Shown here in pieces: positions 3,881 through 34,587 of a stretch of DNA of 64,000 nucleotides; the first letter of the stretch is position 1; each line of letters begins with the position of its first letter. The notes under the pieces were generated by a model, which was given only the letters and a program-made list of their open reading frames with translations, was not told where the DNA came from and made no database searches. Source of the stretch: Desulfobacula sp. (GTDB lineage: Bacteria; Desulfobacterota; Desulfobacteria; Desulfobacterales; Desulfobacteraceae); the NCBI RefSeq assembly GCF_030145145.1, contig NZ_JAQYWD010000032.1, positions 1 to 64,000 of the forward strand, written 5' to 3'. The translations under genes and the position numbers were made by a program.

Positions 3881-6800
3881 TTGAAAGAAAAAAACTTCAA
3901 ATCTGATATCGCAATTATCGGAATGGCCTGTGTTTTTCCAGGCGCACCCGATTTGTTCACGTTTTGGCAAAATATCATACATAAGATCGATTGCATATCG
4001 GATGCCCCCGAAGACTGGTCTTTCCCAGGACTTTCGGATGCGGACAACCCCGAAATTTATTGCAAAAAGGGAGGGTTTCTTCAAGAAAAGGAGAAACAGT
4101 TCGATCCCTTGGAATTCGGTGTAATCCCTTCGGGATTGGAAGGAGCTGAACCAGACCAATTCCTGGCCATCAAAATTGCCAGCCAAGCCTTGGCAGATGC
4201 AGGGTATCTCGAAATCAACCCACATAGAAAGGACTCGGCCGTTATCCTGGGGAGGGGATCGTATGTCAATGCAGGGTTGATGAACCTTGTTCAGCATGGA
4301 TGGGTTGTCGACCAAACCATTGACATCATCAAAAAAGTTCAACCGAATTTTACAACAGAAGAGTTGAGGGGAATCAAAGAGGGCCTGATACAAAGCTTGC
4401 CAGCGTTCAAAGGCGAAACCGTACCGGGACTTGTTCCCAACATTGCAGCAGGCCGTATCGCTAACCGGCTTGACCTGATGGGTCCGAGCTACCTCGTGGA
4501 CGCAGCTTGCTCATCATCAATGCTCGCAGTGGAAGACGGTGTTCGGATGCTTCGATTGGGCGAATGCGAGATAGCCCTTGTAGGCGGTATGCAGGGAGGC
4601 AACACCGCATTATCCTATCGAATGTTTTGTCTGATTAACGCAATGTCCAAAAGTGGTCGAATCAGACCCTTCGATGAAAAGGCTGACGGCACAATTCTCG
4701 GAGAAGGTTTAGGCATGGTGGTTCTAAAACGTCGAGCGGACGCAGAGCGTGATCAGGATCGTATTTACGCTTTAATCAAAGCAGTGGGGACGGCTAGCGA
4801 TGGGCGTGCCCTGGGATTATTGGCGCCAAGACCCGATGGGGCGGCACTTTGTCTGAAGCGTGCCTATGACCGTGCAAATATACAACCGGACACCGTAGGC
4901 TTGATCGAAGCCCACGGGACCGGTACGCCGGTTGGCGATGTGGCGGAACTGGATGCACTCCAACGGATATTTGGCAAACGCGAAAAACGTTTGCCCAGCA
5001 TCGCCATCGGATCCGTCAAATCAATGATCGGTCATAGCTTGGGAGCAGCCGGCATAGCCGGTTTAATCAAGACGGCACTGGCGGTATACAACAAGGTATT
5101 GCCGCCCACTTTGAATTGTAGCCACCCCATTCTTGAAGCCCATTTGGGAAATAGCCCCTTTTATATCAACACGAAAACACGACCATGGGTTCATGGCCAT
5201 ACCGAACCGCGTCGCGCAGGTATCAATGCGTTCGGATTCGGAGGGACCAACGCTCATATCATCCTTGAAGAAGCCCAGCCATTATCACCTGAGAGCCAGG
5301 GAAGCTGTCAACACATTTGGGATTCAGAGGTTTTCATTTTTCAAGGTGAAAGCCGGGCAGACCTCATTGCACATCTTCGAAAGATAAGCACAATGCTTGA
5401 TCTCCAGCCTTCCATTAATTTAAAGGATCTGGCCTACACACTCTGCTGCCCGCTGCAACGTAAGCCCTATTCTTTGTCTATCGTAGCGAAGTCTTTCAAG
5501 GACCTGGCCGAAAAACTGTCTCGGGCCCTCGACCGATTGAAAGATGATCAATGCCTGAAAATAAAGGATCGTAAAGGCATCTATTTCTTTGAAAAAAGAT
5601 TGTTGCCCCATGGAAAAATGGCATTTATGTTTCCCGGTGAAGGATCCCAGTACACGAACATGCTTGCCGAATTGTGCATTCACTTTCCCGAGGTCCGAAC
5701 CCGTTTCGATCTGATGGACCGCTTTTTTATCAATCATTCTCGTGGCTATGTACCAAGCGATTTCATCTATCCACCGCCACTTTTACTATCACAGGAAAAA
5801 AAGGATCTTGACGACAAAATTTGGCAAATGGACAGTGCAATCGAATCGGTCCTTACTGCCAATGACGCTTTGTATCACCTGATGCAGTTACTCAATATTT
5901 CTCCGGACGTTATGGTAGGTCATAGTACAGGAGAGTATTCTGCCATGCGGATAGCCGGCATGTTTGACCTATTGGATGCGTCGGATGACGGTGGGCGTGT
6001 TGAGCAACTGAACCGCCGGCATGAATCCTTGGCAGCTTCTGGAAAGATTCCAAAAGCAAGCCTTCTCAGCATCGGAGCCCCCCCAAAAGATATCGAGAAA
6101 CTGATTCGTGAATTGGATGTACCGATTTTTATCGGAATGAAGAATTGTATTCACCAGACGGTGGTTGTTGGTGCAGAGCCGGAAATGAAACGCTTCATAG
6201 GCGTCCTTCAGAAAAAAGGTCTGATTTATCAGCACCTGCCCTTCGATCGGCCCTACCACACACCACTATTCGAAGCCTATACCGGAGGCATACGAGATCT
6301 ATTCAAGGCAGAGGCAATGTCTCCGCCCAACCTGCCGGTTTATAGTTGCACCGTATGTGCACCGTATTCAGCGCATCCACCCGAAATCGCAAAATTGGCC
6401 GTTGACCACTGGGTTCGGCCGGTGGATTTTCTTCAGACGATAGAAACCATGTATGATGACGGTGTTCGCGTGTTTGTGGAAATCGGACCTAGGGGCATGC
6501 TCACCAGTTTTGTGGATGATTGCCTCAGGGGGCGTGATTATCTCGCTGTTGCAACGAATTTAGAAGCGCGTTCAGATATCGAACAACTCAATCATGCTGT
6601 TGGCATGTTGGCTGCCCAGGGGTTGGACATGAATCTTTTACCACTGTTTCAACGCCGGCAGCCTACAACAATCTCCATTGAGGGAAAAAACAACTCAGAT
6701 GCCGCTACGGCCTCCTCCGGTCGGCATACGGCTTTGTCTCTAACCCTTCCTAAGATGGATATCGCCCCCCATCAGATTCCCTCGCACAAAAAAGCCCCAA

Positions 6801-9343
6801 CCACTCCAAGGAAAACTGCTCTTGACTTATCTCATACAACAAATTCGGACGGTAAAGAGCAGCCGGTGCCGCCCACATTGGAAAAGTCCAACATCTTCGC
6901 AAGTTCTTTCGGGATTGATCCCCCGACAGCCGATGCTTCGCTTCATGCCTATCTGAATACAATGGAGCAATTCCTGGACACGCAGCGGGATGTGATGAGA
7001 GCTTATCTGGGGACAAAAGGCCCAAAGAACCAAGTTACCCCGGAAAGCCAGCAAGAAGATTGGAGTTCCACAGGGCCGGAAGCCAAAACTAGAGCATCAT
7101 CTGCCAATGTAGAGATAGCTCCGGATCAAGACCTTCACAAGCCTTTTAAAAAAGAGAATGCATCCATTGGGAAAGCTGAAATTGGCGCCGTAGAGGAAAA
7201 AGAACAGATCCTATCAGGCCCGCCCAGTAAAGAGTCACCCTACAAAAAAATGAACAAAGACGAGGTGATGGAAAATTTTCTCACGATCATCAGCGACAAA
7301 ACAGGATATCCCCCGGAGGCACTCGAACCTTCACTGGATTTGGAGGCGGATCTGGGCATTGATTCGATAAAACGCGTTGAAATTTTCACCAAACTCGAAG
7401 AAATCTTTCCTGATTTAATGTTTGAGGATCCTCAGCAGCTTGCGACGCTGAAAACCCTGGATGCCATCTTAGACCATTTGGTCACACCGCCTGAAATCGG
7501 TAATACCGTTCAAGCCGGTGGGGGTGAAGCTCCAGCGCAATCTTCAAATACAATGTTGCTGCCGGCCTCCTTACCGCCACTAATTCACACCATTATTGAT
7601 TTTATACCGGGGAAAACCGCCGTCTTAGAAACCCGAATCGATATAGAAGAGCATCATTACCTCCATCATCACAGCCTAATTCCCCCGTTATCCAATGGAG
7701 ATGGGTGGCAGCGTGAGCTCCCGGTAATGCCCTTAACGATCACCATGGAAATGCTGGCGGAAGCCGGTGCAGTGCTTATGCCGGGAAAAATTGTGGTCGG
7801 CATGGAGAACCTGCGCGGATACCGATGGATGGTTGTCCAAGATCGCGCAGTGGATATCCGGCTGGAGGCGCGATGCAAACCCAGCTCAACATCAACCGTC
7901 GACGTTCAACTGTTCAATCAAAGTGAGCGGGACACATCAAATACCAGCCCAGTGGCTGAAGCGACAATACGATTCGCCGATTTCTATCCTGCGCCACCTG
8001 AAACACCTGAAACAACTGAATTCAGCCTAATGGATGCCAGACCGTCCTCTTGGCAGTCGGACAAACTCTATCGCAACGGCATGTTTCACGGCCCCCTCTG
8101 GCAGGGGGTTAAAACGATGGATCAATGGGCAAAAAATGGTTGTATCTCCACGTTCAAGGTTTTACCAACTTCTGAATTTCTAAAATCAACCCCCGATGCT
8201 GACTTTCTAACCGACCCGATCATTCTCGATGCAGCCGGTCAAGCGGTTGGTTTTTGGGCTCAGGAAGGACTGCCAGACAGCGTGATCGTTTTTCCAAATG
8301 GTGCCAAGGCACTGCACATCTATCGCCCTGCACCACCGGTCGGACAACGTGTCACCTGTCAAGCCCGTATTCAAAAAGAGGGGAATCACCACCTGGTATC
8401 GGATATTCGCATGGTCGATGAAAACGGCCGGCTCTGGATGCTTTTGGAGGGATGGGCGGACAAACGTTTTCATCTGCCACACGAGGTCCACGGCCTGTGG
8501 ATGTCCCCCCTTGAAACAATAGCCAGCAAACCGGCTAACGAACTGACAGTAACGTCGAGCAATGGCAATGTGACGGCCCAAATCCGTAATAAAGCACTGT
8601 TCGACCGCGATGAAATTTTCTGGAACCAACTTTTTACAAAACTTATTTTAACGCCGAAGGAGCAGGATCAGGTCAACCAGCTAAATCTGTCACCTCGACA
8701 ACTCACCGGATGGTTGTGCGAACGCATGGTAGCCAAGGATGCGGTTCGGCAATTGGTTCGACAAAAATACGGAAAAACATTTGATCCCGGAAATATCGAG
8801 ATCAATGAATCTGAATCAGGTCAAACTGGTGTTGCATCAATCCGATCCCCACAAAACGCCTATTCGGTATTCGTGTGCAGCACAACCACTGACGGGATCG
8901 TCGCTGCCGTGGCTGAAAGTGCCAAGGAGAAACCAGACATGGGCATCAACATCCTTAAAAAAGACGGGTTATCCGATGACAGATTCACCAAGCTGTCCGG
9001 TGAAGATGGTTTTGATATCAGCCACCTGGAAGAAGAAACCAGACGAGATTGGTGGGCCCGTATTACAACGGCAAAAAACGCGGCACGAAATGCCTTCGAC
9101 CGACAACTTCAAATCGATGAGGGGCAACTCTCCGTGCAGAACATCAACGTTGAAAATGGACTGGTGGTCCTTCGCGTCACGCAGGCGACCAATATCCCTT
9201 TGCATACGGAATCAACAAACACAATACCGGTGGCAACCGCTTCATATGGCGATTTCATCATCGCGTATGCCTGCATTCGGCCGCCTTCAACAAAACGACC
9301 AGCATGTCAGCAGGCCGTCTCGACAGAGAGAGAAGAATCTTGA
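3881..9343 (+). CDS. PfaA-like type I polyketide/secondary-lipid synthase: KS-AT-ACP-DH-degenerate PPTase
   Basis: The protein is about 1820 residues, counted from TTG 3881, which has aggtg about 6 bases upstream; the frame is open back to TTG 3746 but that stretch is unlike any synthase N-terminus. KS (about 8-440) has Cys210 in DAACSSS plus the histidines in EAHGTGTP and KSMIGHS. AT (about 580-900) has Ser682 in GHSTGEY. A single ACP carries Ser1162 in DLGIDSIKRVEI, the form typical of PUFA-type synthases. A DH-like double hot dog follows (about 1220-1540), with HHHSL and DPIILDAAGQ as likely catalytic His and Asp. The last 260 residues fold like an Sfp-type phosphopantetheinyl transferase but lack its metal ligands (GINIL for GIDIE, AKNAAR for KEA). 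There is no KR or ER, so it must work with other enzymes, most likely PKS2. It leads a plus-strand operon. Confidence 0.85.
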   Translation: MKEKNFKSDIAIIGMACVFPGAPDLFTFWQNIIHKIDCISDAPEDWSFPGLSDADNPEIYCKKGGFLQEKEKQFDPLEFGVIPSGLEGAEPDQFLAIKIASQALADAGYLEINPHRKDSAVILGRGSYVNAGLMNLVQHGWVVDQTIDIIKKVQPNFTTEELRGIKEGLIQSLPAFKGETVPGLVPNIAAGRIANRLDLMGPSYLVDAACSSSMLAVEDGVRMLRLGECEIALVGGMQGGNTALSYRMFCLINAMSKSGRIRPFDEKADGTILGEGLGMVVLKRRADAERDQDRIYALIKAVGTASDGRALGLLAPRPDGAALCLKRAYDRANIQPDTVGLIEAHGTGTPVGDVAELDALQRIFGKREKRLPSIAIGSVKSMIGHSLGAAGIAGLIKTALAVYNKVLPPTLNCSHPILEAHLGNSPFYINTKTRPWVHGHTEPRRAGINAFGFGGTNAHIILEEAQPLSPESQGSCQHIWDSEVFIFQGESRADLIAHLRKISTMLDLQPSINLKDLAYTLCCPLQRKPYSLSIVAKSFKDLAEKLSRALDRLKDDQCLKIKDRKGIYFFEKRLLPHGKMAFMFPGEGSQYTNMLAELCIHFPEVRTRFDLMDRFFINHSRGYVPSDFIYPPPLLLSQEKKDLDDKIWQMDSAIESVLTANDALYHLMQLLNISPDVMVGHSTGEYSAMRIAGMFDLLDASDDGGRVEQLNRRHESLAASGKIPKASLLSIGAPPKDIEKLIRELDVPIFIGMKNCIHQTVVVGAEPEMKRFIGVLQKKGLIYQHLPFDRPYHTPLFEAYTGGIRDLFKAEAMSPPNLPVYSCTVCAPYSAHPPEIAKLAVDHWVRPVDFLQTIETMYDDGVRVFVEIGPRGMLTSFVDDCLRGRDYLAVATNLEARSDIEQLNHAVGMLAAQGLDMNLLPLFQRRQPTTISIEGKNNSDAATASSGRHTALSLTLPKMDIAPHQIPSHKKAPTTPRKTALDLSHTTNSDGKEQPVPPTLEKSNIFASSFGIDPPTADASLHAYLNTMEQFLDTQRDVMRAYLGTKGPKNQVTPESQQEDWSSTGPEAKTRASSANVEIAPDQDLHKPFKKENASIGKAEIGAVEEKEQILSGPPSKESPYKKMNKDEVMENFLTIISDKTGYPPEALEPSLDLEADLGIDSIKRVEIFTKLEEIFPDLMFEDPQQLATLKTLDAILDHLVTPPEIGNTVQAGGGEAPAQSSNTMLLPASLPPLIHTIIDFIPGKTAVLETRIDIEEHHYLHHHSLIPPLSNGDGWQRELPVMPLTITMEMLAEAGAVLMPGKIVVGMENLRGYRWMVVQDRAVDIRLEARCKPSSTSTVDVQLFNQSERDTSNTSPVAEATIRFADFYPAPPETPETTEFSLMDARPSSWQSDKLYRNGMFHGPLWQGVKTMDQWAKNGCISTFKVLPTSEFLKSTPDADFLTDPIILDAAGQAVGFWAQEGLPDSVIVFPNGAKALHIYRPAPPVGQRVTCQARIQKEGNHHLVSDIRMVDENGRLWMLLEGWADKRFHLPHEVHGLWMSPLETIASKPANELTVTSSNGNVTAQIRNKALFDRDEIFWNQLFTKLILTPKEQDQVNQLNLSPRQLTGWLCERMVAKDAVRQLVRQKYGKTFDPGNIEINESESGQTGVASIRSPQNAYSVFVCSTTTDGIVAAVAESAKEKPDMGINILKKDGLSDDRFTKLSGEDGFDISHLEEETRRDWWARITTAKNAARNAFDRQLQIDEGQLSVQNINVENGLVVLRVTQATNIPLHTESTNTIPVATASYGDFIIAYACIRPPSTKRPACQQAVSTEREES

Positions 9344-9407
9344 CCGGTGTTTCCAAAGTCAATGTGTGTACATCCCAAGTACCGTTTATAAAAACGGAGA
9401 AAACAAA

Positions 9408-9722
9408 ATGATAATCAAACACGAACAGATATTTGAAGAAATCCACGGCATTTTAAAAAAAATGGATGACGATTTGATTCTCTCTTATGAAATTCTTCCT
9501 AATTCACGCTTGATTGAAGACCTTGGGTTTGAATCCATCGATATCGTCATTTTGTGTACCACCATCGAAACCCACTTCCAACAATAATTCCCTTTCTCAC
9601 TGTTTCTTGCTGAAGTTGGACAGCGTTATGAACGAGATATTCGAGTCCAAGAGCTTGTTGACATAGTGTCTCAATATTTCAATAAGGATGAGAGCCGATC
9701 CGAAAAAAGGATGACGGAATGA
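9408..9722 (+). CDS. Free acyl carrier protein interrupted by an in-frame TAA
   Basis: ATG 9408 follows a GGAG site. The first 59 residues contain LIEDLGFESIDIVILCTTIE, whose Ser in GFESIDIV is the phosphopantetheine site. A TAA at 9585-9587 then stops the frame. After the stop the same frame continues with FLAEVGQRYERDIRVQELVD and ends in TGA 9720-9722, overlapping the next gene's ATG as ATGA. The paralogue at 26621-26920 has the same sequence without the stop, so one substitution in a Gln/Lys/Glu-type codon explains it. Options are a recent nonsense mutation, a sequencing error or readthrough. Taken literally, the product is a 59-residue ACP lacking helix IV. Confidence 0.75.
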
Positions 9723-10759
9723 AATTCAAAAAAAAATTTGATGAGCTGAGCCCCTTTAAAATTATACATCATAATATTGATCAGAAATTTCCCATTCATG
9801 TAGAAATCGATCCAACCTCAACTTGTCAGCAAGATTGTATTCGATGCTCGTACAAACAGAACATTGATGGCAAACGCGATTATATCATCCATAAACAAAA
9901 TGCCAGACTCCCATATGATAAATTTTTAGATTTAATTGACGAATTGAAAACAATCGGTATTAAGGCGATTACACTTTCCGGAGGAGGAGAACCGTTAATT
10001 TATCCAAAGATTGAATCGATCATTGACCACATTTTAACTTCAGGGATCCAGATAGGTGTCATTACAAATCTTTCCACAAAAATTGATACCGGCCTGCTTT
10101 CGAAAGCAATTTGGGTCAGAGTTAGTTTGGATGCCGCAAGTCATAAAATCTACGAAACAGTTCACCGTCCCAAAAACCAGAATGCCTTCTCTTTGGTATG
10201 TGAAAACATCAGCTCGATCATCAAAAAGAATGACTCGATTGATTTGGGTGTCAACTTTCTTATTCAGCCGGAAAATTATTCGGAGATATACGATGCTGCT
10301 CGATTAGTAAAAAAATTAGGGGCAAAGTATATCCGCTTTGCTCCGGTCATCGCAACGGATCACATTGACTATGAGCAATTATTTGGTGAGTGTGATTCTC
10401 TTTTACAGAAAAGTTTAAGTTTAATCGATGATCAGTTTCATGTTTTTATTACGAAGGAACGGTTCAACTCGCTGAAAAAAAATAAAAAAAATTATTCGTA
10501 TTGTTACAAACAAAAAATCCATCCATTGATTGGAGCGGATGGGAATATTTATCCATGCTGTTTGTTGAAATATTATGATCGCCACATTCTTGGCAGCATT
10601 TTGAACGATACATTCGTCAATGTATGGCAAGGAGAAAAAAGAAAAGATTGGTTGAGCAAATTAGATGTCGACCTTTGCCCTCCTTGCTGGTTCGATGAAA
10701 CCAATCTTTTTATCGAATATTTACTCACAAACAACCCAAGCCACGTGAATTTTGTTTAG
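9719..10759 (+). CDS. Radical SAM/SPASM-domain protein
   Basis: The 346-residue protein should bind a [4Fe-4S] cluster through C36-x3-C40-x2-C43 (CQQDCIRC) and S-adenosylmethionine via the GGGEPL motif near residue 95. The C-terminal quarter is SPASM-like: GADGNIYPCC plus flanking Cys residues and the closing CPPC, able to hold auxiliary clusters. Its start overlaps the stop of the ACP gene (ATGA), which implies translational coupling and a role in the lipid pathway. The substrate is not predictable; SPASM enzymes mostly modify peptides, but some act on carrier-bound or lipid substrates. CX3CX2C is the standard spacing. Confidence 0.82.
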   Translation: MKFKKKFDELSPFKIIHHNIDQKFPIHVEIDPTSTCQQDCIRCSYKQNIDGKRDYIIHKQNARLPYDKFLDLIDELKTIGIKAITLSGGGEPLIYPKIESIIDHILTSGIQIGVITNLSTKIDTGLLSKAIWVRVSLDAASHKIYETVHRPKNQNAFSLVCENISSIIKKNDSIDLGVNFLIQPENYSEIYDAARLVKKLGAKYIRFAPVIATDHIDYEQLFGECDSLLQKSLSLIDDQFHVFITKERFNSLKKNKKNYSYCYKQKIHPLIGADGNIYPCCLLKYYDRHILGSILNDTFVNVWQGEKRKDWLSKLDVDLCPPCWFDETNLFIEYLLTNNPSHVNFV

Positions 10760-10815
10760 AGTGATAAAGTTTATTTATCTACCAATCAAAAATTTTTGAT
10801 GGCATGGAATCGATT

Positions 10816-12135
10816 ATGTCAAAATATCTAATCACATGTTATCCAATTGCAGGACATCTTCATCCGAATATCGCATTGGCGCAGGAATTGGTTTCGCGCG
10901 GCCATGAAGTGGCCGTATACTCCGGAGACAACGCAAAGAAAACGCTGGCCTCGGTTGAATTGAAGCATTTTTACTACCATAAAAAGATGAATGAGATCAT
11001 CAACTCAGTTCTATTGCCCTTGCCCTCCAAAGATACTGTAACTTCCGATATTTCAACAGATCGATTCCCCCTTCTACACCTCAAGCAAATTAATAAAAAA
11101 CTTCAGCGTTGGTTTATAGAGACGATCCCTTATCAGGTTGATGATATTACCCAAATTATAGATGAATGGTCGCCTGATGCAATTGTATCGGATATAGCAC
11201 TTTTTGGACCGACACTATTTTTGTCTGAGATGGTATCTATTCCAACAGCAATTTTTTGCGTAATTCCTGCTTGTTCTATTCCGGGGCCGGATGCGCCGAC
11301 ATGGGGAAGAGGATTGCCACTGCCGAACTCTTTCATTTCTCGCCTGAGATCTTTGTTAGAAAAAAAAATAAAACACTTTGCTTTAACCGGGTTTAAAAAT
11401 GAACTGAACAAAATGCGTTCCAGATACGGGTTACCACCCATTTATGTACCAGCAATGGAATATGTTAGACGGTTACCACTATACATGGTTGTCGGTACTC
11501 CGGAATTAGACTATTCCAGACGAGATCTGCCCAAATCAGTCCATTATGTAGGGCCGTGTCTATGGCACCGCCCAAATAATGAGCTGCCTCCATCTTGGAT
11601 TTCTACCTTATCTAAAGAGCAGCCGATCATATATGCTACTGAAGGAACTATTCATGTAAAAAAGCCTTTTTTATTAGAAGCCACATCTGCTGCCTTGGCA
11701 GGTGAAAAATTAAAACTGATAATGACAACAGGAAAACATCGTGCTCCTAAAGATATCAAAACGGATCCTGGCTCGACGAATATTCGGATAGAGCAATATG
11801 TTGCACATGGAGATCTTTTCCCCTTCGTAGATATCGTCATTACAACAGGTGGTACGGGAACGATACTCTCGGCCCTGCTTTTAGGGATCCCGCTCATCGT
11901 TGTTCCCACAGGATGGGATCTTCCGGAAAATGCGCAAAGAGTGGTCGAGGCTGGTGTCGGGATAAGGATTGAACCGGAAAAGTGTACAATAAAGCGCCTT
12001 CGATCCGCTGTATTTGAGATACTCGATAATCCTAAATTCCGCTTAAATGCAAAAAAAATAGGCAACGCCCTGGCTAAAAGGGGCGGGCCTGGACGTGGAG
12101 GGGATTTATTAGAAAAAATGGTGAAAAATAGTTAA
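10816..12135 (+). CDS. GT1-family (UGT/MGT-like) glycosyltransferase
   Basis: The enzyme probably transfers a sugar from an NDP-sugar to a lipid or polyketide acceptor. The N-terminus ITCYPIAGHLHPNIALAQEL has the HxxP acceptor-side motif of GT1 enzymes. The C-terminal half shows the donor-binding signature TTGGTGTILSALLLGIPLIV followed by PTGWDLPENAQRV. Length is about 440 residues, as usual. ATG 10816 (MSKYLITC) has a ggaa site 7 bases upstream; ATG 10804 would add four residues. The gene lies 56 bases after the radical SAM gene and 32 before a nucleotidyltransferase that could make its donor. Confidence 0.85.
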   Translation: MSKYLITCYPIAGHLHPNIALAQELVSRGHEVAVYSGDNAKKTLASVELKHFYYHKKMNEIINSVLLPLPSKDTVTSDISTDRFPLLHLKQINKKLQRWFIETIPYQVDDITQIIDEWSPDAIVSDIALFGPTLFLSEMVSIPTAIFCVIPACSIPGPDAPTWGRGLPLPNSFISRLRSLLEKKIKHFALTGFKNELNKMRSRYGLPPIYVPAMEYVRRLPLYMVVGTPELDYSRRDLPKSVHYVGPCLWHRPNNELPPSWISTLSKEQPIIYATEGTIHVKKPFLLEATSAALAGEKLKLIMTTGKHRAPKDIKTDPGSTNIRIEQYVAHGDLFPFVDIVITTGGTGTILSALLLGIPLIVVPTGWDLPENAQRVVEAGVGIRIEPEKCTIKRLRSAVFEILDNPKFRLNAKKIGNALAKRGGPGRGGDLLEKMVKNS

Positions 12136-12167: not shown

Positions 12168-12890
12168 ATGAAGGCTTTAATCTTGGCAGGGGGTAGAGGG
12201 AGGAGACTTAAAGAAGTAACAAACGAATGTAACAAATCCATGTATAATTTTCATAAACAACCATTAATCGAATACAGTCTTAATAATTCTATTCGTGCAG
12301 GAGTCGATGAAATCATAGTTGTCGTTAGTTATAAAGCAGAGCAGATCATCAATCGATACGGTAATAAATTCAACGGCACACCAATTAAATATGTTATACA
12401 ATGGGAACGGAAAGGTGTCGTTCACGCCATCGAGTGTAGCAGGGAAACAATTGAAGGTTCGAATTTTATGCTTTTTCTGGCCGATGAAATATTGATTGAC
12501 CCCAAGCATAAAGAATTTTTCACTTTTTTCAACACCGAGGAACTATTTGCATCATGTGGTGTGGTCTGGGTTAACAAAATTGATAGGATTAAAAACACCT
12601 ACAGTGTGATTTATGATGAAAATAGCCAACGAATTTACCGCTTGATAGAGAAACCAAAGAACCCTTTCAATCAGATGATGGGTACAGGAAATTGTGTCTT
12701 CAAAAATGAGATTTTTGATTACATCGAATCAACACCAATTAACCAACAAAGAAAAGAAAAGGAATTACCAGATATGATTCAATGTGCAATCGACGATGGA
12801 AAACCCGTTAAATTTTTTGATATTGGTGGTGACTATATCAATGTTAACAACAATCAAGACTTGATGCATCTTGAATTGATATCTTCTTAA
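12168..12890 (+). CDS. Sugar-nucleotide pyrophosphorylase (NTP transferase family)
   Basis: The 240-residue protein starts MKALILAGGRGRRLKEVT, the nucleotide-binding loop of NDP-sugar pyrophosphorylases (RfbA/GalU/GlmU-N type), with the following NECNKSM carrying the usual Lys. A region ending FLADEI takes the place of the metal-binding Asp motif, and the C-terminal part includes DIGGDYINVNN, as in mannose- or glucose-1-phosphate nucleotidyltransferases. GGAG lies 9 bases before ATG 12168. No left-handed beta-helix domain is present. It likely activates the sugar used by the preceding glycosyltransferase (inference from adjacency). Confidence 0.82.
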   Translation: MKALILAGGRGRRLKEVTNECNKSMYNFHKQPLIEYSLNNSIRAGVDEIIVVVSYKAEQIINRYGNKFNGTPIKYVIQWERKGVVHAIECSRETIEGSNFMLFLADEILIDPKHKEFFTFFNTEELFASCGVVWVNKIDRIKNTYSVIYDENSQRIYRLIEKPKNPFNQMMGTGNCVFKNEIFDYIESTPINQQRKEKELPDMIQCAIDDGKPVKFFDIGGDYINVNNNQDLMHLELISS

Positions 12891-21447: not shown

Positions 21448-21553
21448 AATTTCCCTCCAAGTGGTTGAAACGTTAAAGCTGATTGAACGACCATTAAATG
21501 GTGAAATTAGCATGTGCCTGCTTGTTGTTATTCTCCATGGTTTATCCAAAAAA

Positions 21554-24004: not shown

Positions 24005-24126
24005 GTGGATTATACTCCCCAACCCATTATAATTTAAGCTTTATATGACATACTGCTCCGGTATGAGCATCATATTTCATGTTTTGTTGTACGCAACTAC
24101 CTGGAAGGCCAAGCTGCACACGGCCG

Positions 24127-26567: not shown

Positions 26568-26620
26568 TTTTTTCCTCCCTTCAATGTGAAATTAAATCTA
26601 TATCTGACAATTTACAAAAA

Positions 26621-26920
26621 TCATGATAGGCATTTAGCACTCAGGTAATGACACACAAAGTCCGTCAGTTCATCAAGCCGTATATCACGAACATTTTTTT
26701 GACCGACTTCTGCAAGGAAACGCGCAAACGGTAACTGCACCTTATAATGGCTTTCAATAGTGGTACACAGAACCACTATGTCGATGGATTCAAACCCTAG
26801 ATCCTCGATGAGATACGTTTCCAGACTAATTTCTTCCCTGCAGCTGTCCCAATCCTCGGACATTTTATTCAATATCCCCACAACAACTTTAAAGACCGCT
26901 TCTTTATTCTCTTTGTTCAT
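26621..26920 (-). CDS. Free acyl carrier protein (intact copy)
   Basis: The start is ATG 26920 with AAAGGA upstream, giving 99 residues. LIEDLGFESIDIVVLCTTIE carries the phosphopantetheine Ser in GFESIDIV, and FLAEVGQKNVRDIRLDELTD follows. It is closely similar along its length to the interrupted ACP at 9408-9722, including the rare Cys-Thr-Thr after the Ser helix, so the two arose by duplication and likely serve one pathway. It overlaps the end of the preceding ORF by about 17 bases. Confidence 0.85.
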   Translation of the reverse strand: MNKENKEAVFKVVVGILNKMSEDWDSCREEISLETYLIEDLGFESIDIVVLCTTIESHYKVQLPFARFLAEVGQKNVRDIRLDELTDFVCHYLSAKCLS

Positions 26921-27125
26921 AATCGTTCCTTTGGCAAAAGATAGTTGCCACAATGCAATTTTGCTCGTTAATTGTTTGCACGGAAAATTTCTCTCCGGCC
27001 AGAGCTGGAAATTCCCGCACCAATTTTCCCTGAAGTGAAAGTTTCACCATGCCTACGGGAACATCCATCTCCTCAACCACCAGGTTTTCGGCTGCAGTCG
27101 ACCCAAGGGTAAGTGCCTTTCTCAA
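26904..27125 (-). CDS. Small ORF, probable remnant of the PKS2 dehydratase region
   Basis: The 73-residue frame begins with TTG at 27125, overlapping the TGA of the upstream ORF as TTGA. It contains VVEEMDVPVGMVKLSLQG, which could be the strand after the central helix of a hot-dog DH fold, as expected next in a PfaA-like synthase. No catalytic Asp motif is present. It may be a real coupled peptide or the out-of-frame tail of a damaged DH. Identification is weak and rests mainly on position. Confidence 0.4.
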   Translation of the reverse strand: MRKALTLGSTAAENLVVEEMDVPVGMVKLSLQGKLVREFPALAGEKFSVQTINEQNCIVATIFCQRNDYEQRE

Positions 27126-27316
27126 GGCTTCATCAGTTCCATGGCCATTGCAGCAGGCAGTACGGGTTTACCGTCCAGGGTATGGTTTTTAAGGTAAATA
27201 TCTTGGTCCGGCTCAAACGTCTTTGCGATCTCAACCTCCTGTCCGTTTTTCGTGTTCGCCCTTTTGCTATTATTGATTAAAGAAAAACTTTGACCAGCAG
27301 CCTGTCCTGTTTTCAT
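27122..27316 (-). CDS. Small ORF carrying the N-terminal half of a dehydratase hot dog, split from PKS2
   Basis: It starts with ATG 27316, which overlaps the TGA of PKS2 as ATGA, and gives 64 residues. The end, DQDIYLKNHTLDGKPVLPAAM, contains the DH motif HxxxGxxxxP with the catalytic His. In related synthases this sequence follows the KR domain in the same polypeptide. Here it stands alone, ends in TGA after MAMELMKP, and the second hot dog with the catalytic Asp is missing. It is either a functional split domain or a truncated remnant. Confidence 0.6.
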   Translation of the reverse strand: MKTGQAAGQSFSLINNSKRANTKNGQEVEIAKTFEPDQDIYLKNHTLDGKPVLPAAMAMELMKP

Positions 27317-30300
27317 GTCCAGCCGATACCCCCGAGTATCACCTCGGACTCTCCCTTTGCGCCAAAACATATTTCCTGATCAAGCATGTGCACACCCACA
27401 TCCGGAGGAACCAATTCCACCCCTCGTTGTTCAAACTGCCTTTCCAGTTCAGGGGTGACCATTCCGGATTTTGCCCAGGGCCCCCAGTTTACGGCTGCCA
27501 CCCGTGCAGGCCACAGTCCGTCCAGGTAAACTGCCAGTTTATTAAGGACCTCATTGGCTGCAGCATAATCCCCCTGGCCGATGTTACCGAACTTGCCTGC
27601 AACCGATGCAAAAAATATGAGAAACTTCAATGATCCGGGATCAAGCCTGCGGCTCAGAATAAAACCGCTGTCAACCTTTGTATTAAAAACCCTGTCAAAA
27701 GAGGCCTCTGTCTTGTCCCTCATCAACTTATCTTCTATAATGCCGGCCCCATGAATTACACCGTCTATCCGCCCATGTTCTGCATAAATATGATCGATGA
27801 GTTTCCCAAACGAGTCTTCCTCCCGGGCATCCGCCGGGTAATAATGCACAACGGCTCCGGCAGTTTGCATGGCATTTATGTTCCTCCGGATCTCACGCTC
27901 ACCCAGCAAACGATTGTAGGCGGGCTCAACATGTGCAGGCTTGAAAGATTGTCCCTCCCTTTTCATCCTTGATATCAGGGCCCCTTTTATCTCTTTTAGC
28001 GTATGGAGTCCGGCTGTTTCAGTATCCTCTTGTGCAGGCGGCGGATCAGAACGTCCTGTGAGGATGATAATCGGCTTATAAAGTTTTGAAAGTTCAAATG
28101 CAACATCCGCTGTGATACCTTTTGCCCCCCCGGTGATAAGGATAACCCAGGATGAATCCATATGGTTCATCCGCTCCCTTTCCGGGTCCAGAAAAGCGAT
28201 CCTGGGTTTTAAAGTAAAACGATTGGAACCGTTGTATCCCACCTCTACGAGTTGATCCTCCGACCCGATTTCGTTCATCAGGTATTTTGCAAGTTCAGAT
28301 ACATTTTCATCCGGTTTGAGATCCACCGTCTTTATCCTTACATCCGGCCATTCAAGGGCCAGGGATTTCAAAAGCCCGGCTATGGCGCCGTGGCCCGGGA
28401 AAAACGTCTCTTTTTTTTCAAAATTCCTGTCTGCAAAGTTTTCCTCCATGGCTGTAACCCCAATGAGAAGCGCCCCCCCTTTTTGGGCGGCCTGCCCAAA
28501 ATCCTTTTCAAGCGCTTTTATCAGGTAAAAAAGGCTCTTGAACTCCAGCTTGAACCGGTGTTTAAATGCGACAAGGTCCATGGAATTAAAAGGCCTCGAC
28601 TCTTTCAGAGGTAACAGATGAACCAGGCCTGAAACCGGGCCATATTCCCGGTTGACCTTTTCAAGGAACCGGGTTGCATCCTCCTGGGAATCAATTGAAA
28701 TCATAAGGCAATCGCTTGCCGTCACATTTTTTTTATCGGACAACCGTACAAGAACCGCAGACTGCCCCGCCTCGGTTAAACTCTTTACAAGAGCTTGGGC
28801 AATCCCCCGTTCATCATCGGTAACGAGCATTACGCCATGATCCGGCAAGGATGCTGGCGGCCCCTCTAAAGGTGCTGCCACGGCTGAGACGGTGAAACGC
28901 CGGACAGAATTATTTTTTGCCGGGGTACCATCTTTCTCACCAGTGATGAGCTCCCCGGCCTTCGGCTCAGGGGTAATTACGGGATCTTCGTTTTGAACAT
29001 GGGCTCCGATCATTTCCTTTGCCCATTCAATGATTCCGCGCAGGGTTCTGATCCCTGCCAGATCCTCCATCTCTTTTCCCATCTTCTTCCCATGTGCAGG
29101 GCATGTCTCCCCTCGGAAGACACCTGCAATTTCGCCTCTTTTTATGGAATCAATGCCCAGATCGGCTTCCATGTCCAGGTCAAAGTCGAGCATCTCTTCC
29201 GGATATCCTGTACGATCACTTACAATCCTGAGCAGATGAGATTCAAGGCCATAATGTAAAGAATTGGTTTCCTCTCTGGCCGAATCAACCCCGGATCCAA
29301 GTTCAATCTTTTCTATAGGTTCAGGATCAGGAGGATCAATGTCTGACCGCTCCTCAATCTTTTTAAAAGAAGCGGACAGATTTTCATTTTGCGACGGGGA
29401 AACTTGAAAATAGCTCAGCATTACATTCTTCTGGGTTTCAAGAAAGTGATTCATCAATTTCTGATGCCGAATCATGGTTTCGGAAACACCTGCTCTGGAC
29501 AGTGAAAGAGTCGCATTTGAAACCGGCTTAACTTCCTTAACGTCTTTAATGGATGACATTTTCCCACCAATGGAAAGGGTGATGGGTTTAACCGGCTGTT
29601 CCATGCCGGCTTCCTTTAAAGGCATGGCTCTGGCACCGTTTACAAGCCATGTTGTGGGAGGCAGATCTCCGTATAAAAATTTATTGTTCAGCCTTTTTAG
29701 ATTAAAATTTTTTAATGATCTTCCCTTATAAAGTTTTTCCATCTGAAACTGCACACCATTGGCTGCAAGTTCTGCCAGCAGATGAGTGAGCTGAACAAGG
29801 GAATTTCTTCCAGCCTGATCCGAAGCAACTGTGAGATGGGGGCGATCATTGAGTATCTGATCCGTGAGTCCACTGAGCACCCTGCCCGGCCCCACTTCAA
29901 TAAAAATTCTTGCTCCGGTATCATACATAGCCAAAATCTCACGAATAAATTCTACGGGACTTGAAAGGTGCCGTCCCAATAACTCTGCAATGGCATTTGA
30001 ATCATCGGGGAAGACAGAGGCTGTGGTATTGGAAAAAACCGTTATAGACGGTTCTTTCATATCAATGCCTGTAAGGAAAGCCTTTAGACGGTCACACGCT
30101 CCGGAAACAAGGGGGGAGTGAAATGCACCGGAAACGGGAATCAAACGTGCCGGAATTCTCAAATCCCTGAATTTTTCAAGAACCAGTTCCAGCACCTGTT
30201 TGGTTCCGGCAATAATTGTCTGTCCGGGGGCATTCAGGTTGGCTATCCATATATTATCCATATGGTCGATAACTTTTGCTACATCATCATGACTTGCGCT

Positions 30301-33300
30301 GATGGCAGCCATTGTCCCTGAATCCGAGTTGGCTTCCTCAGTGATAAAACGTCCCCTTGCCTCGGACAGAACAATAAGCTCCTCTTCACTGAAAACCCCG
30401 GCAGCGCACAGGGCCGAGTATTCACCATAACTGTGACCGGCTACCATATCAGGCTGTACTCCCAGATCTTTAAGCAGATGAAAAAGTGCAAGGGAGGCTG
30501 TTCCCATTGCAGGTTGAGTAATTTTAGTCTCAGCAAGAGCAGATTTCTGCGAATCCTTTTTCTCTTTTGCAAAGGCGGGCGGTGGAAAGATAAAGCTGCT
30601 GAGCGGCCTGGAAAACTTACCGTTTAGAATGCAATCACTTCGTTCAAATATTTTACGGATTTCCGGAAATGCCACTGCCAGATCTGAAAGCATGCCGACA
30701 TACTGAGAGCCTTGACCGGGAAAGAGAAAAGCTATCCCGCCGCTTCTTGCAAAGGGTTTTTCCGAAAAATAGATACCGCGGGGATCATTAATCACCATGT
30801 CTGAACCCGCAAGCAACTCCCCTGCCCGTACAAGTTTCTGCCTTAAATCGTCGCGTGAGCCCGCAACCAGTGAGAGTTTCAGTTTTGAATCCTCTTTTTC
30901 TGAAAAACCAGACAGGTATTGTTGGTTTATCGTATATGCAAGATCCCCAATGGAATGATCCATCCTTTTGGAGAGGGCATCTTCCAACGATTTTATCGAT
31001 TCCATAATCTCTTTACGGGAATCTCCGCTTAAGATAAAAAGTTCCATGGGCCATTTATGGGAAACGGTTCGGGATGCCAAAGGCATAAATCCATCGGTGT
31101 ATTCCTCAAGCACCACGTGAAAGTTGGTCCCACCGAACCCGAAGGCACTGACACCTGCCCTGCGGGGGTGTTCATTAAAAGAACAAATCCATGGGCGAGT
31201 TTCCGTATTTACATAAAGGGGACTATCGGAGGCGTCAACTTCGTTGTTTGGTTTTTCCACGCCAAGCGTAGGGGGTAATACCTTATGATACAGAGATAAC
31301 GCTGTTTTTATAAGGCCCGCCGTTCCTGCAGTGGATTTTGTATGTCCGATCATGGACTTTACAGATCCGATACCGCAGCTTTTCGGGGTTGAGCCTGCAT
31401 CACAGAGAAAACGATTCAACGCTTCAAGTTCAACACTATCACCCACGGGGGTACCGGTTGCATGGCCCTCAACAAACTCAACAGTTGAGGGCGAAATTTT
31501 CGCTTTGTCATAAGCGCGCTTAAGGGTTCTGATCTGGCCATCCCTGCTTGGTGCAGTTAAACTCTTGTCTCTTCCGTCACTGCCCGCACCGATTCCTTTA
31601 ATAACCGCATAGATTCTGTCGCCGTCACGTTCAGCATCCTCAAGACGCTTGAGAATCATCACGGCAACGCCCTCTCCAATAACAATTCCGTCCGCATTTT
31701 CATCAAGTGGTGCGCTCTGCCCTGTAGGAGACAATGCCTTGGTCTTGGAAAAACATAAATATGTAAAAGGATTTTGCATCGCATCCGCACCGCCGGTGAT
31801 AACCATATCACTGCTGCCCGATTCAAGTTCCTTTACAGCCAGGTGCAATGCTGCAAGGGATGAGGCGCATGCCGCGTCCACGGTAAAATTTGTTCCCCCA
31901 AGGTTGAACCGGTTGGAGATCCTTCCGGCAGTAACGTTCATCAATATTCCCGGAAAGGAGTCCTCGGTCCATTCCGGTAAATTCCCGTCAAGACCGGTGA
32001 TGATATCTTTCTCAGACTCACCAAAGAGCATGGGCAATGAAGATCGAATGCTGTATTTCTGTCCCAGTTCAGCAGTTCCGCTGATCCCAAGGATTACCGA
32101 AGTGCGTTCGCGCGCAAAGGGGCGTGTTGAATATCCGGCATCTTTTAACGCTTCGCTTACCGCCTCAAGTGTTAAAAGCTGCAAAGGCTCGATGGATGAC
32201 AGCGTCTTAGGTGGAAACCCGTACTTCAAAGGGTCAAATGGAATATCATCGATAAACCCCCCCCATCTTGAATAGACCCTGTCCCTTTCATCTGGATTCT
32301 TGTCATAGTAAAGTTTCCAGTCCCAGCGTTCCTTAGGCACCTCACGGATGGCACTGACCTTGTTGAGAATGTTTTCCCAGTATGCCGAAAGTTCAGGCGC
32401 CTTGGGCAGTATGCATCCCATTCCGATAATGGCTATGTCCGAAGGTTTTTCCTCTTTATTGACCGCCGGTTTAATTATTTTTTCTCCAAGGGATTTAATT
32501 ATTTCAGTGCTTCCCAGAGAAATGTTGCGATGAAGCCTTTTTATCGTAAAGTCCCGATGGTGAAGTGCGGCAAGCTGTCCCGTCATATATATCCCGTTGG
32601 AATGCTGCCGCATTTCAGGCACATTTAAAAATAGGGCTACATGGTCTTTTTTTCCGTGTTCAGGATTTATTTCTTCCCCTTTGGAAGCGACACGCAGCCT
32701 TCCGCGACCCAACTCCTCCAGGGCTTCCCTTATTGCATCAGCAGACTTTCCTTCGAGGATAAGTTTTTGTTGCTCATTTCTAAAAAAATTCACATACGGT
32801 GTTTGTACGCAACGGATCGCATGGCCGGGGCCGGATTCCAGAACCACCGTGCCATCGCAACCGATAAGTTCTTGCTGGTATTTTCTGAGTATCGCCCCTG
32901 TGGAAACCGCTTCCCTGGTAAAAAGATATGAACTGCCAAGCTGCACTCCCACACGGACCCCCCGGTTTGTAAGAGGAGCCGTCATCAAGCCTACCATCGC
33001 TGCAGAAACAGCATCGTGGATTCCTCCGGCAAACAGCAGATGATACGCCTCGCCTCCATGACCTAAAGGGATAAGTTCAAGAAGAATATTGATCATGGTT
33101 TCCCAGAGCACAAAACCGGAACGGGGTCCAACATGCCCCCCACACTCACGTCCCTCAAAGATGAATCGCCTGACACCGCTTTTGATAAACAGTTTTAACA
33201 AGCCGGGGGAAGGAACATGGAGATATGTAGAAATCCCCTGTTTTTCAAGAGCAATGGCCTGATCCGCCCGCCCTCCCGCGATCAAGGCAAAGGAAGGAGA

Positions 33301-34587
33301 ATGTGACTTAATGATATCTATCTGTTCATTATATATATCCGAAGGAAGAAAGCCTAAAAGGCCAACCCCCCATGGATGATTTTTTATATGATCCCGTGTC
33401 TGTTGAAGCAGTATGTCAAGGTCTTTTCCCTCCATCCAGGATACGGCTATAAACGGCAGTGCGCCTTCACTGGCGACCTTCCCGGCGAAGGCGACATTGT
33501 CACTGACCTGTGCCATTGGGCCCTGAACAATGGGATAAAGGGTTCCATGTGATTTTGCAAGGGGTGAGCCCTCCCCAAAAGGAGGGCTGCTGGATGCTGT
33601 ACTGCAATGTGAAACAACGGAATCACGAATCGCAGAGATAACCCCGCTAACAGTAACGAACCTCTCACAAAAAAACGAAGCAAGGCAGATATCCTGCCCC
33701 AAAAGATATAAGCACCCCTGAGACGAATCCCTGCTCACGAGCCGAAAAACCTCCTTTTGCCACGTCTCAACAATCTCCCCCTGAGGAAGATCACTATCGG
33801 CAAGAAATTTTTCCTTCCGCCGCAATTCTTTCACTCCGGCAGCACCCAGTCTTGAACATAGCCTGTAGTTTTTCCCGATTTCATCACCAAGGCACACTGT
33901 TTCGCTACCGTCCATCCTGGATATTATCGCCTTCGTCCTTTTGGAAAAAGGAGATTCGCGTGTCAATGAAAGCTGTGAATCCAGAATTATGCCGGCCGCC
34001 CCCCCTCCATAACAGGCCGCCGCTGTGTGGAGCCCGATGCCTCCCTGTGCCCAGATCGGAAGAGAAAACGATTGCAACAATTTCTGCAGCAGAATATAGG
34101 TTGTTTCATCTCCGACATGTCCTCCCGTCTCATTTCCTTTGGCAATTATCCCGTCCACACCTGCTCGATTCCCCAGGCGAGCCTGCTCAAGACTGATGCA
34201 CTCCAGAACAACGGCAAGCCCCTTTTGTTGAAAATTTTGAACATCATTCTTCAAATTTTCAGTATGATCGCAAGTCAGAATGACTATCTTGAGGTGTTTA
34301 AATAGATTCAATGGGGACTCGAGAAAAAATTTCCGGTTCTGCCAGTCAAGTTTTATCCCAAACTCCCCTCTAGCATATTGTGCAAGCTTATTAACAGCGG
34401 TCAGCATTTTCTTTTTGTTAGCTGTATATTCAAGATTTAGAATTCCCAGTACACCTGCACGGCTTGCGGAAATTGCCAATGACGGGTCAATGAATCCTGC
34501 CGGGGTAAGAACCGCGATTTGAAATTTATCCATGGAGATTTGAAGGCTGTCGCCTGCACAGGAATAGGTCGGTCTATTTAAAAACAT
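27313..34587 (-). CDS. Large PfaA-like synthase: NPD-NPD-KS-AT-ACP-KR
   Basis: The protein has 2424 residues; start ATG 34587 lies 8 bases after GGAG. The N-terminus holds two nitronate-monooxygenase-like flavin TIM barrels (about 20-330 and 345-655), each with a GGHVG loop, related to the PfaD-type enoyl reductase. KS (about 720-1160) has Cys907 in DAACASS with GHATGTP and KSMIGHT. AT (about 1275-1580) has Ser1386 in GHSYGEY and GAFHS. A single ACP carries Ser1814 in DLGIDSIKRGEI. KR (about 1900-2400) has ITGGAKGI, FFASVAGKFGN and GDYAAANE, so its Lys, Ser, Tyr and Asn look intact. Partners in PUFA synthases have tandem ACPs and a separate PfaD; here there is one ACP and the reductase is fused. 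It heads the minus-strand operon and complements PKS1 (no KR or ER). Confidence 0.87.
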   Translation of the reverse strand: MFLNRPTYSCAGDSLQISMDKFQIAVLTPAGFIDPSLAISASRAGVLGILNLEYTANKKKMLTAVNKLAQYARGEFGIKLDWQNRKFFLESPLNLFKHLKIVILTCDHTENLKNDVQNFQQKGLAVVLECISLEQARLGNRAGVDGIIAKGNETGGHVGDETTYILLQKLLQSFSLPIWAQGGIGLHTAAACYGGGAAGIILDSQLSLTRESPFSKRTKAIISRMDGSETVCLGDEIGKNYRLCSRLGAAGVKELRRKEKFLADSDLPQGEIVETWQKEVFRLVSRDSSQGCLYLLGQDICLASFFCERFVTVSGVISAIRDSVVSHCSTASSSPPFGEGSPLAKSHGTLYPIVQGPMAQVSDNVAFAGKVASEGALPFIAVSWMEGKDLDILLQQTRDHIKNHPWGVGLLGFLPSDIYNEQIDIIKSHSPSFALIAGGRADQAIALEKQGISTYLHVPSPGLLKLFIKSGVRRFIFEGRECGGHVGPRSGFVLWETMINILLELIPLGHGGEAYHLLFAGGIHDAVSAAMVGLMTAPLTNRGVRVGVQLGSSYLFTREAVSTGAILRKYQQELIGCDGTVVLESGPGHAIRCVQTPYVNFFRNEQQKLILEGKSADAIREALEELGRGRLRVASKGEEINPEHGKKDHVALFLNVPEMRQHSNGIYMTGQLAALHHRDFTIKRLHRNISLGSTEIIKSLGEKIIKPAVNKEEKPSDIAIIGMGCILPKAPELSAYWENILNKVSAIREVPKERWDWKLYYDKNPDERDRVYSRWGGFIDDIPFDPLKYGFPPKTLSSIEPLQLLTLEAVSEALKDAGYSTRPFARERTSVILGISGTAELGQKYSIRSSLPMLFGESEKDIITGLDGNLPEWTEDSFPGILMNVTAGRISNRFNLGGTNFTVDAACASSLAALHLAVKELESGSSDMVITGGADAMQNPFTYLCFSKTKALSPTGQSAPLDENADGIVIGEGVAVMILKRLEDAERDGDRIYAVIKGIGAGSDGRDKSLTAPSRDGQIRTLKRAYDKAKISPSTVEFVEGHATGTPVGDSVELEALNRFLCDAGSTPKSCGIGSVKSMIGHTKSTAGTAGLIKTALSLYHKVLPPTLGVEKPNNEVDASDSPLYVNTETRPWICSFNEHPRRAGVSAFGFGGTNFHVVLEEYTDGFMPLASRTVSHKWPMELFILSGDSRKEIMESIKSLEDALSKRMDHSIGDLAYTINQQYLSGFSEKEDSKLKLSLVAGSRDDLRQKLVRAGELLAGSDMVINDPRGIYFSEKPFARSGGIAFLFPGQGSQYVGMLSDLAVAFPEIRKIFERSDCILNGKFSRPLSSFIFPPPAFAKEKKDSQKSALAETKITQPAMGTASLALFHLLKDLGVQPDMVAGHSYGEYSALCAAGVFSEEELIVLSEARGRFITEEANSDSGTMAAISASHDDVAKVIDHMDNIWIANLNAPGQTIIAGTKQVLELVLEKFRDLRIPARLIPVSGAFHSPLVSGACDRLKAFLTGIDMKEPSITVFSNTTASVFPDDSNAIAELLGRHLSSPVEFIREILAMYDTGARIFIEVGPGRVLSGLTDQILNDRPHLTVASDQAGRNSLVQLTHLLAELAANGVQFQMEKLYKGRSLKNFNLKRLNNKFLYGDLPPTTWLVNGARAMPLKEAGMEQPVKPITLSIGGKMSSIKDVKEVKPVSNATLSLSRAGVSETMIRHQKLMNHFLETQKNVMLSYFQVSPSQNENLSASFKKIEERSDIDPPDPEPIEKIELGSGVDSAREETNSLHYGLESHLLRIVSDRTGYPEEMLDFDLDMEADLGIDSIKRGEIAGVFRGETCPAHGKKMGKEMEDLAGIRTLRGIIEWAKEMIGAHVQNEDPVITPEPKAGELITGEKDGTPAKNNSVRRFTVSAVAAPLEGPPASLPDHGVMLVTDDERGIAQALVKSLTEAGQSAVLVRLSDKKNVTASDCLMISIDSQEDATRFLEKVNREYGPVSGLVHLLPLKESRPFNSMDLVAFKHRFKLEFKSLFYLIKALEKDFGQAAQKGGALLIGVTAMEENFADRNFEKKETFFPGHGAIAGLLKSLALEWPDVRIKTVDLKPDENVSELAKYLMNEIGSEDQLVEVGYNGSNRFTLKPRIAFLDPERERMNHMDSSWVILITGGAKGITADVAFELSKLYKPIIILTGRSDPPPAQEDTETAGLHTLKEIKGALISRMKREGQSFKPAHVEPAYNRLLGEREIRRNINAMQTAGAVVHYYPADAREEDSFGKLIDHIYAEHGRIDGVIHGAGIIEDKLMRDKTEASFDRVFNTKVDSGFILSRRLDPGSLKFLIFFASVAGKFGNIGQGDYAAANEVLNKLAVYLDGLWPARVAAVNWGPWAKSGMVTPELERQFEQRGVELVPPDVGVHMLDQEICFGAKGESEVILGGIGWT

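Follow-up and report, generated by a model that had tools for sequence, protein, structure and literature searches.

The two convergent operons at 3881-34587 of the window (the whole stretch of DNA analysed, 64,000 nucleotides) each encode a megasynthase, and we consider them, with a probability of roughly 70%, to be complementary parts of one iterative lipid/polyketide pathway. Their core, PKS2-PKS1-ACP-PDE-ABH, is conserved over bacterial phyla and, as judged by sequence comparison, is a widespread cluster family. The result is thus a conserved two-megasynthase cluster, spread across many bacterial phyla, for which we found no product in print. Several carriers are named strains, so that the product can be sought directly. 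Because each half of the cluster in the window has lost what the other kept, the window also provides a natural test of domain sharing by two iterative synthases.

Gene content of the two operons

The window is contig C15 of a genome of 5.66 Mb in 89 contigs. All genes of 3881-34587 were found as long open frames, and their Pfam and NCBIfam families agree with those listed for both operons in the earlier note. The two hydrolases of that list can be specified as one AlkP-superfamily phosphodiesterase and one alpha/beta hydrolase. Absent from it were the PPTase-like end of PKS1, the two discrete ACP genes, the scar at 27131 and the relatives of the propeller half of the 14770-17787 product. The features are as follows.

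3746..9343, plus: PKS1, KS-AT-ACP-DH ending in a degenerate PPTase-like domain, 1865 aa, with an uncertain start codon (Pfam, catalytic residues, model)
9408..9692, plus: discrete ACP gene, broken, 3' of PKS1, with an in-frame TAA at 9585 (sequence comparison)
9719..10759, plus: radical SAM/SPASM enzyme, rSAM (Pfam; GC 0.361; none in the best 80 of 304 related loci)
10804..12135, plus: GT1-type glycosyltransferase, GT (Pfam; also in the nearest relatives' clusters, about 41-42%)
12168..12890, plus: sugar-phosphate nucleotidyltransferase, NTP (Pfam; GC 0.351; none in the best 80 of 304 related loci)
12991..13998, plus: sulfotransferase ST1, Sulfotransfer_3 (Pfam; GC 0.383; none in the best 80 of 304 related loci)
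14770..17787, plus: alpha/beta hydrolase-like and beta-propeller protein, 1005 aa (propeller relatives in 42 of the best 80 of 304)
19005..19577, minus: compact sulfotransferase ST2, 190 aa (46-49% identical to genes in the clusters of G340, G356, G278 and G350)
19681..21549, minus: fatty acyl-AMP ligase, FAAL (family match)
21554..23032, minus: GPH-type MFS transporter (54% identical to a gene of the G386 region and 63% to one of the G644 region)
23114..24022, minus: SDR reductase (about 69-70% in G386 and 64% in G644 to cluster genes)
24127..24933, minus: alpha/beta hydrolase, ABH, core gene, GHSWG motif (family match, relatives)
24957..26567, minus: AlkP-superfamily type I phosphodiesterase, PDE, core gene (family match, relatives)
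26621..26920, minus: discrete ACP gene, intact, 99 aa, core gene (sequence comparison)
26928..27131, minus: remnant, C-terminal end (PPTase tail) of a deleted PKS1 (tail comparison)
27131..27312, minus: remnant, first part of the lost PKS2 dehydratase, frameshifted; the junction is at 27131 (tail comparison)
27313..34587, minus: PKS2, NPD(ER)-KS-AT-ACP-KR, 2424 aa, dehydratase lost (Pfam/NCBIfam, motifs)

In addition, a PEP-CTERM protein gene (17900-18469, plus) adjoins the hydrolase-propeller gene, and a phytochelatin synthase-like protein gene (41549-42307, minus) adjoins uvrA.

Domains of the two synthases

PKS2, which contains GGHVG twice in its NPD half and has one ACP motif, passes the NCBIfam PfaA (TIGR02813) cut-off (1099.9 bits vs 1010.1), and PKS1 stays below it with 658.5 bits. 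The view that each synthase has a single ACP held, the GIDSIK motif occurring once in PKS1 and once in PKS2; the Pfam PP-binding model detects the ACP of PKS1 and not that of PKS2 (E 0.001). The further statement that neither synthase is complete alone was also borne out: PKS1 is without KR and ER, and PKS2 is without DH. Of a dehydratase on the minus-strand synthase, only a frameshifted stub is left and no working domain.

In a 48-row alignment of PKS1, the KS His/Lys/His, AT Ser/His and DH His/Asp residues are present in 48/48 rows, and the KS Cys in 46 (gap in 2). At the ACP serine position, 13 rows have Ser and 33 have a gap, and most PKS1 homologues are without an ACP. Since PKS1 has no KR/ER and most homologues have no ACP, PKS1 would be unable to work alone. 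In a first alignment, the AT Arg was found in 0/6 PKS1 ATs vs 10/10 other ATs. The corresponding column of the 48-row alignment holds Arg in 2 rows (Micromonospora), and in 15 rows, the window's included, an Arg lies one residue beyond it; the loss is thus less clean, and an alignment shift is possible. The AT of PKS1 probably moves acyl chains, not malonate.

The model of the PKS1 C-terminal part (pLDDT 86.7) matches PKS dehydratases. The domain that follows the DH is not named by Pfam and aligns with the Sfp-type PPTases of the homologues. Among the 45 homologue C-termini from the related loci (best 80 of 304), 34 were scanned for PPTase; the ACPS (PPTase) model matches 25 of these 34, and not that of the window PKS1. 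The one-pathway reading leans on neither the AT Arg nor this PPTase count. The window domain is without the GIDIE-like and KEA-like stretches of the homologues, which we take to be PPTase motifs, and its identity to ten others is 23.6%, as compared with 37.9% for the others among themselves. Two further PPTase genes exist elsewhere in the genome.

The core cluster in related genomes

Relatives were surveyed by a PDE-profile scan of named genomes, and the best 80 of 304 were examined with 10 kb flanks. The counts were made with BLAST cut-offs, and their denominators are the loci whose flanks were long enough (with room). Within this set (best 80 of 304), the loci of G340, G356 and G278 reappear as L147, L151 and L156 and those of G386 and G644 as L118 and L119, and L180 and L181 are identical. 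The last pair, from Hydrocarboniphaga effusa AP103, consists of two identical 21593-base cluster copies on one contig, either a recent duplication or an assembly artefact.

For the best 80 of 304 loci, a PKS1-type DH is located within 1.5 kb upstream of the PDE in 55/71 loci with room, a PKS2-type KR within 11 kb upstream on the same strand in 40/49, and the ABH downstream of the PDE in 64/68. A discrete-ACP-like match was found in 77 of these best 80 of 304 (50 within 1 kb upstream of the PDE, 25 behind it and 2 elsewhere). By open reading frames alone, PKS2 is directly upstream of PKS1 in 36/45 (from the best 80 of 304). Longest-frame calling overlooks genes where the locus is GC-rich, and the nine exceptions are mostly due to frames that are split or overlap, or to small intervening genes. 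The usual order in relatives of several phyla is therefore PKS2, PKS1, discrete ACP, PDE and ABH on one strand. The distances of PKS1, PDE and ABH co-vary over 26 loci and the window (r 0.71-0.78, a value that still includes shared host ancestry; 0/2000 permutations were as high). Represented among the PKS1 rows are Pseudomonadota, Actinomycetota, Planctomycetota, Acidobacteriota, Chloroflexota, Cyanobacteriota and deltaproteobacterial groups. The carriers include Nevskiaceae, Micromonospora and one cyanobacterium, and among the named strains are Solimonas terrae KIS83-12, Hydrocarboniphaga effusa AP103, Stagnimonas aquatica THS-13 and Micromonospora sonchi.

Same-strand PKS2, PKS1, PDE and ABH occur in G386, G644, G605, G340, G356, G278 and G350, and also in G688, where PKS2 apparently spans two contig ends; G361 shows PKS1 and PDE at a contig edge. 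In G340, G356, G278 and G350, the synthases are adjacent, and behind them PDE, ABH and ST2 always come in this order. G386 and G644 have a single operon of PKS2, PKS1, discrete ACP, PDE, ABH, SDR, GT and propeller protein, with the MFS transporter further along and with genes absent from the window. The window PDE is 63% and 60% identical to those of G386 and G644, the ABH 75% and 71%, and the discrete ACP 44% to that of G386. In L137 (Desulfobulbaceae), a PKS2-type synthase lies on the strand opposite the PDE, which makes this locus a second rearranged form of the cluster.

The window shares with this family both synthases with intact KS and the orthologues of the discrete ACP, PDE and ABH. 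One-strand adjacency in the core order is absent from it, the cluster being split, and a scar at 27131 is found instead. The full gene set of the window occurs in none of the relatives surveyed, and in 25 same-genus genomes no PKS2 match was found above the ordinary level of PfaA-like synthases (best 2.3e-227); both points weigh against the one-pathway reading. Taken jointly, the two operons have one unbroken copy of each gene shared by G386 and the window. The proposal that both operons feed one pathway, the most tentative part of the earlier note, is the part with the best support, which comes from the adjoining one-strand synthases of the relatives and by the scar of that order in the window.

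Separate occurrence of the synthases, which the earlier note regarded as speaking against its reading, was found in part. Searches of 340 genomes of the order gave PKS2 matches in 12 (E ≤ 1e-231) and PKS1 matches in 8 (E ≤ 1e-181), the window's own included in both; among 395 genomes of the phylum, PKS1 occurs in five besides the window's. The neighbourhoods of these relatives within the order were surveyed for all but G294 (PKS2) and G136 (PKS1 match). G187, G209 and G027 have a PKS2-type synthase without an adjoining PKS1. In G187 and G209 the PKS1 match is their own PKS2-type protein, behind which a PPTase-like protein is encoded, and a domain scan of G187 alone showed a C-terminal DH in its PKS2. 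In G027, KR and DH are separate genes; this genome had been taken as a sign of synthase independence, an idea that was dropped after wider searches of relatives. G151 has a KS-AT-DH neighbour of the PKS2 match, the G189 match is at a contig edge, and no PKS1 was found beside the PKS2 match of G242 in its 13 kb contig.

These PKS2 types without PKS1, the convergent strands and the occurrence of rSAM, NTP and ST1 in 0 of the best 80 of 304 loci would suit two unrelated pathways that adjoin by chance, each synthase with its own tailoring genes. This seems quite improbable: PKS1 is without KR/ER and PKS2 without DH, and G386 and G644 hold both in one operon, in which genes related to GT and to the propeller gene of the plus strand also lie.

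PKS1 or PKS2 might instead be a partner of other Pfa-like synthases of the genome, which exist on contigs C44 (2504 aa), C29 (3920 aa) and C28 (1459 aa) and carry the missing domains; those of C44 and C28 have FabA-type dehydratases. However, frames of like size (about 2500 and 3800 aa) recur in same-genus genomes that show no PKS1/PKS2 orthologue. There is also no linkage to PKS1 or PKS2, and we regard such a partnership as highly improbable.

The junction at 27131

On the minus strand, 3' of the PKS2 stop, the dehydratase start persists one frame off until base 27131, where it is fused to the tail of a deleted PKS1. Two sets of comparisons meet at this base. On the PKS2 side, 29/43 query tails match up to the junction, 28 at 27131 and one at 27134 (the 43 include non-PKS2 frames and the 29 include three duplicates). 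On the PKS1 side, 4/51 tails start matching at 27131. The intact 99-residue ACP gene (26621-26920) and then the PDE follow 3' of the scar, and it looks as if the minus copy lost PKS1 and the PKS2 dehydratase in one deletion.

A PKS2 without its own DH is found elsewhere: 4/40 PKS2 C-termini (L128, L143, L150 and L158) stop within 45 residues past the KR, with PKS1 behind, so that a DH-less PKS2 served by the DH of PKS1 would be a natural state. The NPD domain of the window is 58% identical to that of G386, as compared with 52% between G386 and G644, and is thus conserved as in the relatives; such conservation makes little sense unless a working dehydratase exists.

Divergence of the plus-strand half

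In a quick tree, the window PKS1 is sister to those of L118/L119 (G386/G644; SH-aLRT 99), and its branch of 1.21, as compared with 0.31 and 0.38 for the sisters, implies evolution about three to four times faster. When identities between the window and L118 are set against those between L118 and L119, they are 57/56% for PKS2, 63/67% for PDE, 75/79% for ABH and 69/69% for SDR, whereas they are 45/60% for PKS1 and 42/61% for GT; the propeller gene (45/48%) has no clear excess divergence. Since PKS1 and GT diverge more than the minus-strand genes, the plus half looks like the faster-evolving copy. Their fast divergence is as expected under relaxed constraint and counts against the one-pathway reading, as do the two or three gene-breaking events in the cluster. 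Duplication of an ancestral operon followed by reciprocal loss is probably the simplest account. An insertion-sequence DDE transposase gene is located just upstream of PKS1 (414-1871, plus), and this element is a possible agent of the rearrangement.

The main rival to the one-pathway reading is accordingly decay after duplication, in which the rearranged cluster would be a relic that no longer makes any product. Besides the long PKS1 branch, it draws on the deletion of PKS1 and DH at 27131, the PKS2 frameshift, the broken plus-strand ACP, the degenerate PPTase domain and the upstream transposase. However, PKS1 and PKS2 are open across 4289 codons with intact catalytic motifs, the frames of the remaining named genes are open too, and there is one unbroken copy each of PKS2, PKS1, ACP, PDE and ABH. 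Moreover, the divergence is domain-specific (KS 54 vs 61%, AT 46 vs 47%, ACP 42 vs 50%, DH 36 vs 41%), with the PPTase dropping most. We therefore regard a relic as unlikely.

Tailoring genes and the predicted product

That the product is a sulfated glycolipid, as the earlier note suggested, agrees with the relatives in part. GT occurs in 9 of the best 80 of 304 loci, the two nearest relatives among them, and ST2 in 5, but BLAST found ST1, rSAM and NTP in 0 of these best 80 of 304. Propeller genes occur in 42, SDR in 29 and FAAL in 4 of the best 80 of 304, and MFS2 in 0, the flanks stopping short of the MFS2 present in L118 and L119. A search for rSAM at E 1e-40 over 291 genomes of the order gave a single further relative (G026, 35%), so that its gene context is uninformative. 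Among the genes absent from G386, rSAM, NTP, ST1 and ST2 have GC contents of 0.361, 0.351, 0.383 and 0.386, and FAAL of 0.474; the synthases, PDE, ABH and SDR have 0.47-0.49. The AT-rich character of rSAM, NTP, ST1 and ST2 fits later addition to the cluster. The residues that we take to be the PDE metal site are invariant in nine aligned sequences. The relatives of the propeller half of 14770-17787 are cluster genes, and its model gave generic propeller matches only. A PD40 beta-propeller protein (36759-37952, minus) has relatives of 30-31% identity at two sites of the G644 cluster region and may belong to the cluster. Overall, the bacterium probably adds sugar and sulfate to a lipid, and a sulfated-glycolipid product of the window's cluster is plausible.

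ST2 and ABH could alternatively act as in curacin and Ols, where sulfation of a beta-hydroxyl, hydrolysis and decarboxylation would give a terminal alkene and not a sulfated lipid. In the Ols pathway, FAAL, KS-AT-ACP-KR, a sulfotransferase and a hydrolase are found together, as they are here. For curacin, a sulfotransferase and decarboxylative terminal-alkene step is described in the accessible part of PMC3908369. However, ABH is a core gene (64/68 loci with room), whereas ST2 is rare (5 of the best 80 of 304), so that ABH is not tied to sulfation. Among the 34 PDB sequences matched by ST2 (E up to 1), the sulfotransferases are mostly SULT-type and none is labelled CurM or OlsA, though these matches are weak (best E 1.5e-4). 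We regard an alkene product as very doubtful.

Proposed working of the cluster

Under the one-pathway reading, the ancestral operon would have been duplicated, the minus copy then losing PKS1 and the PKS2 dehydratase, and the plus copy retaining PKS1 and GT while its discrete ACP was broken. FAAL would load the discrete ACP with a fatty acid. PKS2 would carry out malonyl loading, condensation, ketoreduction and enoyl reduction. PKS1 would act on the carrier proteins of its partner synthase and provide the sole dehydratase of both operons, as well as another ketosynthase and an acyltransferase, the last of which probably does not load malonyl. The chain may be released by ABH and tailored by SDR and PDE, with sugar from GT, sulfate from ST1 and/or ST2, and export by the MFS protein. 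The predicted product is a long-chain glycosylated, probably sulfated lipid, for which any chain structure and any sites of sulfation are guesswork.

A broader proposition, on which we would place about even odds, is that the family represents pan-bacterial two-synthase lipid factories, in which one synthase reduces and the other, usually without a carrier protein, dehydrates and transfers the chain. Here, a diverged opposite-strand copy of PKS1 would have rescued the pair after the deletion, and the lineage would have added sulfotransferases and a radical SAM enzyme, leading to a new sulfated glycolipid.

Comparison with known systems

The enediyne PKSE has the order KS-AT-ACP-KR-DH-PPTase, which resembles the KS-AT-ACP-DH-PPTase order of PKS1. 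Nevertheless, a second synthase adjoins PKS1 in most relatives, and an enediyne PKSE is ruled out by the lack of a KR between the ACP and DH of PKS1. The PfaABCDE system is similar in that PKS2 is over the PfaA cut-off, the enoyl reductase is NPD-type and the second synthase polypeptide is without KR. It differs in several respects: the NPD is fused to PKS2, the second synthase is KS-AT-(ACP)-DH-PPTase, the dehydratase of PKS1 is a PS-DH, and the partners are PDE, ABH and GT. A canonical PUFA synthase is excluded by the lack of tandem ACPs (one GIDSIK in each synthase), of a FabA-type DH (PF07977) in PKS1 or PKS2, and of a chain length factor, each synthase having one KS and both of these having the Cys motif.

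Heterocyst glycolipid (hgl) clusters share the Pfa-like synthases and include a glycosyltransferase; we know of no PDE or ABH core for them. Neither synthase of the window has a second KS, and no thioester reductase was found among 15 proteins scanned at 3.7-34.6 kb. According to the part of PMC3098273 consulted, HglC is KS-CLF-AT and the hgl cluster is without DH domains. A heterocyst glycolipid synthase is thus ruled out, there being no KS-CLF-AT subunit or thioester reductase.

The swf cluster of sponge symbionts, the product of which is unknown, likewise has a single iterative synthase, accompanied by genes for a sulfotransferase and a radical SAM enzyme (PMC3908369, in the sections available). 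However, SwfA unites KS-AT-DH-ER-KR-ACP in a single protein, SwfB fuses a reductase to a sulfotransferase and SwfC has a B12 domain (same sections of PMC3908369), and these differing domain orders rule it out.

No characterised product for the cluster was found in the literature covered, which included the available part of PMC13291983 and left most subscription journals outside. The impression of the earlier note that the gene combination matches no known pathway holds to this extent; it does not hold for the core, which is a widespread cluster family and not a one-off. The secondary lipid synthases of Shulse and Allen (2011), as given in the available part of PMC3098273, are product-unknown Pfa-like clusters of types A-T across phyla. 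The words sulfotransferase and alkaline phosphatase are absent from its main text, so far as available (PMC3098273). On the other hand, single-ACP clusters are admitted among these synthases, and type O includes a roseobacter (same part of PMC3098273), as does the present set, in which the roseobacter L197 carries a relative of the window cluster.
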